DNA of 25,233 nt from a bacterium (GTDB lineage Bacteria; T1Sed10-126), in contig PWHN01000060.1 in the NCBI GenBank assembly GCA_003554945.1, positions 1 to 25,233 on the forward strand. The letters are read 5' to 3'. The notes under the pieces are model-generated. The model was not told the origin of the DNA, ran no database searches, and worked only from the letters and a program-made list of their open reading frames with translations. Below are positions 18,787-22,662 of this stretch, in pieces. Within the stretch, counting starts at the first letter, position 1; every line of letters starts with the position of its first letter. Both the position numbers and the translations under genes were made by a program.

Positions 18787-20154
18787 TTATTTGAGGTTAG
18801 AAATCTGTTCTTCCGCCAATTCGTTTTGACGGGCCGCAAGACGCGTCAGATCAAGCGGTAGGAATTCTCCATTTTTAACAATAATCTCTCCATTAATAAT
18901 CGAGTGATTGACTTTAGGTGGGTGACAGAATACAAGCGCTGCCAGCGGATCATGTTGGCCACCAGCATAGTCTATGCTATCCTTCCGAATTCCAATTATA
19001 TCCGCTGCCATCCCCGGCTCTAGTTTTGCTATGTCATCGCGCCCTATTGCTTTCGCTCCACCAACAGTAGCCGCCCGCAGCACGTCTTTGGCGGTAATAG
19101 ATTCTTCGTCGTAATTAATCCTTTGAAGCAGAAGTGCCTGGCGCGCTTCGGCAAACATGTGTGAACTGTCGTTGGAAGCGCTACCGTCTACTCCAAGACT
19201 AACCTTAACGCCGGCTTTTAACATATCAACAACGGGAGCCATACCGGAGCCAAGCCTCATGTTAGAACTCGGACAGTGACTCATTGAAGCTCCGGCCTTG
19301 CCCATGCGACGAACTTCATCTTCATTAAGGTGAATAGAGTGGACGTGGATCGTCTTTTCGTCCATCCAGCCCAGAGATTCCAGGTAATCAAAGGGACGCA
19401 TACCCGTCTCTTCGATACAGAACTCTTCCTCGTCTATTGTCTCAGCGAGGTGGGTATGAAAATAGACCTTCTCAAACTGTTCTCCCAGCTCTTTGCTCTT
19501 CTTCATAATACTGTCAGTCACTGAAAAGGGCGAACAAGGAGCGACAATAATTCTGGTCATTCCATATTTTTCCGGTTCATGATACTCGTGTATTACATCC
19601 TCTGTGTGCTTTAAGATGGTATCCTCGTCCTGAACTACGCTGTCTGGAGGTAAACCGCCGTCTTCCTTGGAGAGAGACATACTTCCACGCGTCGGATGAA
19701 ACCGCAGCCCAATGTCCTGCACAGCTTCGACCTCGGCTTCAAAGACTCCCTCGGGGTGCGCCTCGGGAAAGACGTAGAAATGATCAACAGCAGTTGTACA
19801 ACCCGACATTATCAGTTCGGCAGCGGCCACCTGAGCACTCACACGAGCCATCTCGGGAGTTAGATACTTCCATATCTCATAGAGATAGGTTAGCCAGTCG
19901 AATAATTTTGCGTCCTGAACTGCCGGTATGTTCCGGTTCAATGTCTGATAAAAGTGGTGGTGAGTGTTAACCAGCCCCGGCATAAAGATATGGTTACTGC
20001 CGTTAATTATTTGGTCGGGTTCCCAGTCTTCGCCCAGTTCCCTGGCAATCTCTTCAATCCTGTTGTCAATAATTCGTATATTAACGTCTTTTTGCAGGTC
20101 TTCTCCAACTTCTGTTACCAGCGTATCAACATCTTTTATTACAATTTCTGACAA
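18787..20154 (-). CDS. 8-oxoguanine deaminase-like amidohydrolase
   Basis: A TRZ/ATZ-family hydrolase of about 455 residues. Residues (numbered from the TTG) are His65/His67 in NTHHHFYQTL, His235 and Glu238 in THLAETIDEEE, His272 in HVHSIHL and Asp323 in GVDGSASND. QDAKLFDWLTYLYEIWKYL, TRGSMSL, GGLPPDSVVQ and APCSPFSVT are the marks I associate with the 8-oxoguanine deaminase group, which turns 8-oxoguanine into urate. Some members are annotated as hydroxydechloroatrazine hydrolases. The start is uncertain: TTG 20154 has AAGGAG at 10 nt, whereas GTG 20163 lies only 1 nt from that SD. It is the first gene of a pair with the mtaD-like gene. XdhC at 11151 hints at wider purine metabolism. Confidence 0.82.
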   Translation of the reverse strand: MSEIVIKDVDTLVTEVGEDLQKDVNIRIIDNRIEEIARELGEDWEPDQIINGSNHIFMPGLVNTHHHFYQTLNRNIPAVQDAKLFDWLTYLYEIWKYLTPEMARVSAQVAAAELIMSGCTTAVDHFYVFPEAHPEGVFEAEVEAVQDIGLRFHPTRGSMSLSKEDGGLPPDSVVQDEDTILKHTEDVIHEYHEPEKYGMTRIIVAPCSPFSVTDSIMKKSKELGEQFEKVYFHTHLAETIDEEEFCIEETGMRPFDYLESLGWMDEKTIHVHSIHLNEDEVRRMGKAGASMSHCPSSNMRLGSGMAPVVDMLKAGVKVSLGVDGSASNDSSHMFAEARQALLLQRINYDEESITAKDVLRAATVGGAKAIGRDDIAKLEPGMAADIIGIRKDSIDYAGGQHDPLAALVFCHPPKVNHSIINGEIIVKNGEFLPLDLTRLAARQNELAEEQISNLK

Positions 20155-20255
20155 CTTTCTCACTCTCCTTATAAATTTTATTTTACAGTTGAGATACTAC
20201 TCAAAGTTAATTCCATATCTTATCTATTATTCCGTAAAATTACCACACCTTTCCG

Positions 20256-20444: not shown

Positions 20445-21650
20445 TCAACCCGTTTTGACGCGACTTACAAGACGACCGTCGTCCAATCGAACACTTTTCG
20501 CTCCGGGATCAGGGACCAGTTCGTCTCCATCAACTAAAAAGCCATACAGTAGCTCTCCACCGGGAACGGGGACTTCTGCCTCCCAGGCCCCTGGTGAGCT
20601 TTGTTCTAAGGATGTCAAAGGCTCCCAGTTTACAAAATCACCTGTCAATTCAACACTATTGGCTTGAGCAAATTTTTCTCCCACAAGCTTGAACCTGTGT
20701 AAAACAGTTTCTGTGAATCGATTCCGTCCTTTTTCCTTTGAATAATACATAGCCCGGTCTGCAGTCTCAAACAATTCTGATACAGTTTCCCCGTGTTCAG
20801 GGGAGGTTGCGCTTCCCACACTTACCGTTAATCGACCGGACGGTTGTCTTTCCTCGCCGTCAAACCTCTGCTTTTCAACCTGCTTACGTAAACGCTCGCC
20901 AGCTTTGCGAGCAATTAAATTATCTGCTCGACTAAGCACTACAGAGAACTCTTCTCCGCCCACGCGACCGACAAGATCTCCCTTCCTGAAAAGATTGGCG
21001 ACGGTTGAACCCAGTTCGGCCAGCAGCCTGTCACCGGCAGCGTGACCGTGAGTGTCGTTAAATACTTTGAAATTATCTATGTCAAAAACTAACAACGAAA
21101 GAGGCAGTTTACGTGCTTTATGCAACTGTAACAGTCTCTCCGCTTCGCTATAAAAATATTTTTTGGCAGCCAAACCGGTTAGCTCATCCTTTTTTACTTC
21201 AGCAGATACCTCCTCCGTGTGTTGACGTAATTTACGAGTGAGCGACCGGTGAGTCTGAAGCAAGAAATTCTGATTGTGAAAATACTGGGCCAGACCGTGA
21301 ATTTTTGCTTCCAGCAGCCTGAAATCAGGCGGCATGTTAAAATATCCAAATCCACCCGCGTTTATCCAGTTTAACGCCCTGGTCGGGCCAAGAATGTTCC
21401 CAAACAAAATAACCTGGGTGAAAACACTGGCTTTGCGCACTCGCCTGAGAAATTGTCCCACTTCACCAACAATTTCATCTTCGGCTATCAACAGGTGAAA
21501 ATCTGTCTGACCAAGATTGTTCCACAAGTCAGCAACATTTCCGACCTCGACGACTTCAAACGACCGCCGGGCCAGAAGCTCCCTTGTCTTCTTCTTGATC
21601 GACCGGTCCTCTATCAACAGACAGCCGTGCAACTGGCTCTTATTTTCCAT
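20445..21650 (-). CDS. Diguanylate cyclase: degenerate receiver + GGDEF + glycogen-binding-like E-set domain
   Basis: A 401-residue cytoplasmic protein likely to make cyclic di-GMP. Residues 8-125 resemble a response-regulator receiver, but the expected phospho-acceptor Asp position in FHLLIAED reads Ile and the usual Lys before Pro reads Asn-Met (YFNMPP), so it is probably a pseudo-receiver. Residues 152-313 form a GGDEF domain with DELTGL, DIDNFKVFND, an intact I-site RKGD (222-225) and active GGEEF (231-235). Residues 318-401 form a beta domain: FKLVGEKFAQANSVELTGDF, then NWEPL, GAWEAEVPVPGGELLYGF and LVDGDELVPDP. This is the pattern of CBM48/AMPK glycogen-binding early-set domains. The ATG at 21650 has a GAGGATG SD, and a good promoter lies at 21714-21742. 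The function of the fusion is unknown. Confidence 0.88.
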   Translation of the reverse strand: MENKSQLHGCLLIEDRSIKKKTRELLARRSFEVVEVGNVADLWNNLGQTDFHLLIAEDEIVGEVGQFLRRVRKASVFTQVILFGNILGPTRALNWINAGGFGYFNMPPDFRLLEAKIHGLAQYFHNQNFLLQTHRSLTRKLRQHTEEVSAEVKKDELTGLAAKKYFYSEAERLLQLHKARKLPLSLLVFDIDNFKVFNDTHGHAAGDRLLAELGSTVANLFRKGDLVGRVGGEEFSVVLSRADNLIARKAGERLRKQVEKQRFDGEERQPSGRLTVSVGSATSPEHGETVSELFETADRAMYYSKEKGRNRFTETVLHRFKLVGEKFAQANSVELTGDFVNWEPLTSLEQSSPGAWEAEVPVPGGELLYGFLVDGDELVPDPGAKSVRLDDGRLVSRVKTG

Positions 21651-21973: not shown

Positions 21974-22147
21974 ATGACCCCAACAAAAATTATAACAACA
22001 GACGAACTGGCAAGAATTGTCGGCTGTCCCCGCCAGCGGATCAACAGCTGGCTTGATAATCAACCTGATGGGCTTGTAGTAGAAAAGGATGGTAAGAAAG
22101 GGCTTGACCCCGTAACGCTCGCCCTGTTTTTAAAACAACAAGATTGA
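21974..22147 (+). CDS. 57-residue helix-turn-helix protein
   Basis: A very small protein whose residues 8-28 (TTDELARIVGCPRQRINSWLD) read as a helix-turn-helix of the MerR/excisionase type, followed by a short beta-hairpin-like stretch LVVEKDGKKGLDP and a terminal helix TLALFLKQQ. It is probably a DNA-binding protein. I choose ATG 21974, which has AAAGGAGA 7-8 nt upstream; an in-frame ATG at 21956 lies before that SD and lacks one. It is divergent from the diguanylate cyclase and convergent with the next gene (4 bp between stops). No phage or integrase genes are nearby, so an excisionase role is not supported. The target is unknown. Confidence 0.72.
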   Translation: MTPTKIITTDELARIVGCPRQRINSWLDNQPDGLVVEKDGKKGLDPVTLALFLKQQD

Positions 22148-22151
22148 CCGC

Positions 22152-22622
22152 TCAGGCGACTTCTTCCAGCACATTACCTCGCAGGTCAAGATCGTTATTG
22201 CCACTAACATTTTCCAGGTCCTGAAACCCGTTGGATGTATATATTTGGCGAGCATCCCCGGCGCCGTTTACCTGCAATAAAGAATAATTAAATTCACCGG
22301 CGCCATTTTCAGGGCGAGAAATAACTATCGCCGTCATCCCACTTTCTCCGCCACCGTTTTCCAATGCATCTGCAGTTGTTCCACCCATCACACGGACCGA
22401 AAGAACTTCGCGCCCTTCCAGCGACTGAATACGGCTCTGCTCGGCGAAAATTTGTCTCTCCAGATCAGTTGGTTCAAAGCCACCGCCGCGGTCTCCGCCA
22501 CCCGTAGATTCGACCGCCTCAACCTGACGCACCGGACCTTCACTGGGAAGAGCAAGGGCTTCGGAAATGCTAGAAAAAACAGGTGGCGCCTGTCCTAAAG
22601 ATGATATACTGTTTATGTTCAT
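22152..22622 (-). CDS. Unknown Gly-rich protein
   Basis: I do not recognise this 156-residue protein. It begins MNINSISSLGQAPPVF, continues through a low-complexity Ser/Glu/Pro part, then GGGDRGGGF and a helical EPTDLERQIFAEQSRIQSLEG. After a Gly-rich linker (ALENGGGESG) comes a beta-prone half with TAIVISRPENGAGEFNYSLL. No clear signal peptide, membrane helix or catalytic motif is seen. The N-terminal MNINSISS style occurs in some flagellar or secreted accessory proteins, but that is weak. Start is ATG 22622 with GGAGG about 9 nt upstream; the reading frame extends to 22643 without support. Its SD lies in one arm of the inverted repeat at 22627-22662. Confidence 0.65.
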   Translation of the reverse strand: MNINSISSLGQAPPVFSSISEALALPSEGPVRQVEAVESTGGGDRGGGFEPTDLERQIFAEQSRIQSLEGREVLSVRVMGGTTADALENGGGESGMTAIVISRPENGAGEFNYSLLQVNGAGDARQIYTSNGFQDLENVSGNNDLDLRGNVLEEVA

Positions 22623-22626
22623 AATT

Positions 22627-22662
22627 GTTTCCTCCACTATCATATATCGACCCGGAGGAAAC
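22627..22662 (-). promoter_or_regulatory. Inverted repeat containing the SD of the 22152-22622 gene
   Basis: GTTTCCTCC (22627-22635) and GGAGGAAAC (22654-22662) are perfect 9-bp complements separated by 18 nt. In a minus-strand transcript that starts upstream, the first arm would pair with the GGAGG that serves the ATG at 22622 and could mask it. The 18 nt spacer is AT-rich and contains TATGAT on the minus strand. Confidence 0.45.

Follow-up and report, generated by a model that had tools for sequence, protein, structure and literature searches.

A gene for a predicted diguanylate cyclase with a receiver-like and an E-set domain

The 25,233-nucleotide stretch of DNA analysed here (the window) carries on its minus strand an ATG-initiated gene for a protein of 401 amino acids, in which a pseudo-receiver, a coiled coil, a GGDEF domain and an E-set domain follow one another, the E-set standing at the C-terminus immediately after the GGDEF domain (Table 1). 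The plus frame across 20445-21650 is riddled with stops, leaving minus as the coding strand. The initial annotation had delimited this open reading frame without stating its strand. Its extent was borne out by our analysis, and its three domain calls (receiver-like, GGDEF and AMPK1_CBM/CBM48-type E-set) were supported by Pfam and PDB matches. The set searched contained one other genome of the phylum, which shares the family but not the genus of the window's genome. This second genome encodes a full-length ortholog with the same three-domain order, whose presence in related genomes had been proposed as a check.

Table 1 Positions of the cyclase gene, its domains and key residues, neighbouring genes, and glgA-linked fusion loci in other genomes. 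Plain numbers refer to the window; L005 is the ortholog locus.
Feature	Position	Strand	Basis
Whole gene, 401 aa	20445..21650	(-)	ORF list and translation; ATG start; full-length ortholog L005:1486-2700, 45% identity
Degenerate receiver domain, residues 8-125	21276..21629	(-)	E57 at acceptor site; G84 and M106 replace Thr/Ser and Lys
Helical linker, residues 126-152	21195..21275	(-)	Within single predicted helix 110-153 (AlphaFold secondary structure); 59% identical to ortholog
GGDEF diguanylate cyclase domain, residues 153-312	20715..21194	(-)	PF00990, E 5.8e-41; TIGR00254, E 3.6e-42
I-site R222-K-G-D225	20976..20987	(-)	Translation; same in ortholog
A-site GGEEF, residues 231-235	20946..20960	(-)	Translation; same in ortholog
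E-set (AMPK1_CBM/CBM48-type) domain, residues about 318-401	20448..20699	(-)	PF16561 and PF02922; AMPK beta-2 CBM in PDB
W342, AMPK-beta W100 equivalent, kept	20625..20627	(-)	Alignments
G370, AMPK-beta K126 equivalent, lost	20541..20543	(-)	Alignment
L378, AMPK-beta W133 equivalent, lost	20517..20519	(-)	Alignment
8-oxoguanine deaminase	18787-20163; L005:68-1444	(-)	NF006055, over cut-off
57-aa helix-turn-helix-like protein	21974-22147	(+)	Weak YfeC-like similarity
Small unannotated protein	22152-22643; L005:3124-3570	(-)	
glgA followed by GGDEF-AMPK1_CBM	L182:4767-7626 (G205); L171-L175; L179 with L178		

The PF00990 match covers the whole GGDEF domain (residues 154-311, profile positions 3-161 of 161), and both the GG[D/E]EF active site and the RxxD inhibitory site are present and identical in the two orthologs, so that the earlier description of an active GGDEF domain, based on RKGD at 222-225 and GGEEF at 231-235, holds at the level of motifs. 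AlphaFold modelled this part with pLDDT mostly >90, and a Foldseek search with the receiver-helix-GGDEF model returned structures of the WspR, DgcR and PleD cyclases as top matches, 3bre, 6zxb and 3i5a among them. The cyclase is apparently competent, c-di-GMP synthesis being predicted from the motifs alone.

Like WspR, PleD and DgcR, the window protein combines a receiver fold, a long helix and a GGDEF domain with an RxxD I-site. The Pfam Response_reg match stayed under the cut-off (E 0.0077). A profile made of the two orthologs only matched the PmrA receiver in PDB over residues 8-122 (E 4.8e-4; E 1.6e-4 in another comparison with the pair profile), and the AlphaFold model shows (beta-alpha)5 secondary structure at a pLDDT of only about 47-63, which together with the Foldseek result points to a receiver fold ahead of the helical linker and GGDEF domain, as in cyclases of the WspR/PleD type. 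Unlike these, the window protein has an extra C-terminal E-set and lacks the phosphorylatable Asp with its conserved Thr/Ser and Lys. Alignment to PmrA placed Glu at the acceptor position of both orthologs (E57 in the window protein; 21480-21482), Gly at the beta-4 Ser/Thr position of both (G84), and M106 at the beta-5 Lys position, where the ortholog has Q. The receiver had been described as dead for want of the phospho-acceptor Asp and the Lys; both are indeed lost, but the acceptor has been replaced by a conserved Glu and is not merely absent. Judged by these residues, the receiver is unable to be phosphorylated at Asp in the normal way. Exchange of Asp for Glu at a receiver acceptor site is a substitution often used as a phosphomimic, and the conserved E57 could be a built-in phosphomimic that holds the receiver in an active-like state.

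The C-terminal domain was identified by several profile comparisons. In the whole-protein scan, AMPK1_CBM and CBM_48 both scored slightly under their cut-offs (PF16561 at 329-392: E 1.7e-5, 25.4 bits against 26.8), and the profile search of the C-terminus against these two families that the initial annotation had suggested gave significant matches: with the last 87 residues alone, both cut-offs were passed (PF16561, E 8.4e-7, 29.6 bits against 26.8; PF02922, 24.9 bits against 22.4). AMPK1_CBM was over the cut-off in a six-frame genome search as well. The profile of the ortholog pair found AMPK beta-2 CBM structures in PDB (E 3.6e-4, residues 331-393), and a profile with nine related E-sets found the AMPK beta CBM with an E of 1.6e-11. 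By these scores, the sequence similarity between the E-set and AMPK CBM domains is well beyond chance. AlphaFold gave no confident fold for the E-set, with or without an immunoglobulin-like sandwich: its pLDDT was 49 for the domain alone, from an alignment of 2 rows, and 30-41 within the model of the whole protein, from 22 rows. Scans of viral contigs found no relatives of the E-set.

GGDEF-E-set fusions recur in other lineages and follow glgA in one family

A model of the GGDEF end together with the E-set was run over 386 genomes, mostly of distinct families. In five genomes from outside the phylum, its match extended over the GGDEF end and the E-set alike. With about 430 different genomes covered in all, such frequencies are rough. 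Reading the open reading frames revealed a GAF-GAF-GGDEF-E-set order in two of them (G147, G284) and GGDEF-E-set with other N-termini in the remaining three (G205, G183, G038), with AMPK1_CBM over the cut-off in all five. Four of these five genomes have glgA, which was not seen in G038 (87% complete). A match in G178 was not counted, as it contains internal stops and its open reading frame ends after the GGDEF domain. GGDEF-E-set fusions exist in at least three lineages beyond that of the window. The initial annotation had called the arrangement one that it did not know as described; this stands for the exact receiver-GGDEF-E-set order, found in this phylum alone, but not for the pairing of GGDEF and E-set.

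In the 45-genome phylum of G205, the fusion is present in 9 genomes. Within one of its families (f183; four genera), the fusion lies directly downstream of glgA in all seven readable genomes. In G205, G409, G412, G413, G414 and G415, both genes have the same orientation and glgA comes immediately first; in G411 the fusion is split over two contigs, one ending with glgA and the N-terminal half, the other opening with the rest. The gap between glgA and the fusion is roughly 40-170 bp, varying with the start codon chosen. G410 (65% complete) is uninformative, and in two further families of the phylum (G405, G406) the fusion lies away from glgA. The proteins of the glgA-linked family resemble the window protein in having a GGDEF domain followed by a C-terminal AMPK1_CBM domain, but differ in their all-helical N-terminal part without a receiver, their GGEEM or GGEEL active site, their retained glucan-contact residues and their operon-like position next to glgA.

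The fusions form about four groups on both the GGDEF tree and the E-set tree, and a single origin of all of them was not rejected by the AU test (GGDEF tree, p 0.48; E-set tree, p 0.35). On the E-set tree, which is weak, the window protein and its ortholog are placed next to E-sets of membrane proteins in which the Lys is likewise missing, and apart from the other GGDEF fusions (support 94, modest), a grouping that would make an independent fusion in the window's lineage possible. These nearest relatives of the window E-set are encoded directly after ECF sigma genes and many of them lack the Lys; unlike the window protein, they are single-pass membrane proteins, probably anti-sigma, with no GGDEF domain.

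The window protein has lost glucan-contact residues that other fusions keep

In AMPK beta-1, glycogen binding is abolished by W100G and by K126Q, and weakened by W133L and by G147R (PMC6274970). With residue equivalence to AMPK beta drawn from sequence alignment only, the window protein keeps W100 and has Gly and Leu in place of K126 and W133, respectively, and Val in place of N150; the ortholog shows the same pattern at all four positions. Looking for the glucan-binding Trp and Lys residues, another check proposed at the outset, therefore gave a divided answer, with the W100 equivalent present but those of K126 and W133 replaced in both proteins. The window E-set thus resembles the AMPK beta CBM48 domain in its whole-domain family match and in W100, but departs from it at K126 and W133 and in being fused to a cyclase, where the AMPK domain is a kinase subunit. 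Among the fusion E-sets from outside the window's phylum, the Lys is kept in 13/13 and the W133 equivalent in 12/13, the last having Phe. Because W100, unlike K126 and W133, belonged to the pattern by which the comparison domains were collected, its conservation among them is uninformative. CBM48 domains elsewhere may rely on other contacts.

The genome of the window encodes glgA, glgB and a phosphorylase (glgP), all on other contigs (glgA on C41, the window being C12); no glg genes were found within the window, and the cyclase gene does not directly follow glgA. In the ortholog genome, a 91% complete draft, searches for phosphorylase, GH13 and further CBM48 domains gave no match, glgA did not exceed the cut-off, and glgB was not detected. 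A draft may miss genes, and this gap is not proof of absence; that all of the glg genes went missing by chance is unlikely, because in the window genome they lie on separate contigs. The persistence of the cyclase where no glycogen system was detected speaks against a glycogen ligand, and together with the loss of the K126 and W133 equivalents makes glycogen sensing by the window protein doubtful.

The initial annotation had suggested that the activity or location of the cyclase could follow carbohydrate storage. For the window protein itself, it is unlikely, though worth keeping in mind, that an altered site in the E-set holds an alpha-glucan, be it glycogen or another, with cyclase output or location set accordingly. 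The family matches, the retained W100 equivalent, the glg genes of the genome and the other fusions, with their conserved residues and glgA adjacency in seven genomes, would all fit such a role. Against it stand the missing Lys and Trp in both members of the phylum, the location of the glg genes on other contigs, and the ortholog that persists apparently without them. The suggested link fares better with the relatives: if any of these cyclases is tied to glycogen, the glgA-linked proteins are likelier than the window protein to be among them, and some GGDEF-E-set cyclases probably read out or sit on glycogen.

A probable interaction or regulatory module at the C-terminus of a predicted WspR/PleD-like cyclase

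The reading that we favour, with confidence about evenly balanced, is that of a soluble cyclase of WspR/PleD build whose receiver is not a phospho-switch and whose E-set has been repurposed as an interaction or regulatory module rather than a glycogen sensor. Such a protein would dimerise via its receiver-like domain and helix, and its motifs suggest that it would make c-di-GMP under I-site feedback. The E-set, presumably derived from a glucan-binding-type domain, would now dock a partner or pack on the cyclase, and the window protein would represent a divergent member of a wider GGDEF-E-set cyclase class.

Compared part by part, the two orthologs are 30% identical in the receiver, 59% in the helical linker, 54% in the GGDEF domain and 45% in the E-set, so that the E-set looks maintained, not decaying. 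Invariant E-set positions include Gly-Asp-Phe, Trp, Tyr-Gly, Asp-Pro and Val-Ser-Arg, and premature stops are absent from both cyclase genes. These observations bear on the idea that the E-set is a passive appendage (an aid to solubility or dimer packing, or a decaying remnant) with no ligand or regulatory role. Its lost ligand residues, its shortness and its C-terminal position, where additions are tolerated, would agree with this, but conservation above that of the receiver across two genera, with invariant positions and no premature stops in either gene, makes it improbable.

Gene order around the cyclase is kept in both genomes, with a small unannotated protein upstream and an 8-oxoguanine deaminase downstream. 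A role in purine metabolism, with the cyclase co-regulated with the deaminase and the E-set docking it or another neighbour-encoded protein, appears very improbable: the deaminase gene comes next downstream of the cyclase in either genome, with the same orientation and, in the ortholog genome, a spacing of 41 bp, but about 280 bp separate the two genes in the window, a pair of genomes from a single family has little power, and no link between a cyclase and this deaminase is known.

The small upstream protein, with N-terminal NSISS and C-terminal DLxG motifs, had no Pfam or NCBIfam matches. Divergent from the cyclase gene, the window also encodes a 57-aa helix-turn-helix-like protein, and a comparable frame can be read at the corresponding position of the ortholog locus.

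Relation to known links between c-di-GMP and glycogen

We consider it possible, though somewhat short of an even prospect, that the GGDEF-E-set proteins form an unrecognised class of cyclases with an output or location set by glycogen or other alpha-glucans, some of them in glgA-cyclase operons, and that the window protein is an offshoot that has retained the domain order while its glucan site changed. No description of a GGDEF domain fused to CBM48/AMPK1_CBM, or linked with glgA, was found in the open-access literature; in Fibrobacter, GGDEF and CBM48 are on separate proteins.

The one direct link between c-di-GMP and glycogen found in the literature is Streptomyces GlgX, a glycogen-debranching enzyme with a CBM48 domain that binds and is controlled by c-di-GMP (PMC9530166). 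According to work cited in the same paper, cyclase overexpression in E. coli lowers glycogen by a mechanism given there as unknown (PMC9530166). GlgX, the nearest precedent found, shares CBM48 with the GGDEF-E-set proteins and unites c-di-GMP with glycogen metabolism (PMC9530166), but is an effector enzyme that binds c-di-GMP, whereas the window protein is predicted to make it. The glgA-adjacent relatives with their kept residues suggest a little-known link between c-di-GMP and sugar storage. If true, a cyclase that follows glgA and carries a glycogen-type domain would provide the reverse link, from storage state to c-di-GMP, and the window protein would be a natural comparison in which the glucan site has been lost.

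Outside the cyclases, ECF sigma factor genes of many lineages are immediately followed by genes for short proteins, one of them with zf-HC2, in which a membrane-helix-like stretch leads to a C-terminal E-set (L125:629-1725, L126:632-1734, L128:645-1734, L138:674-1602, L139:1459-2893, L141:392-1725). A likely role for these is that of anti-sigma proteins whose outer domain is of the CBM48 type. In Planctomycetes GWC2_45_44, a ParA/MinD-type ATPase carries a C-terminal AMPK1_CBM domain (L054:2874-4226, minus strand; E 8e-12).
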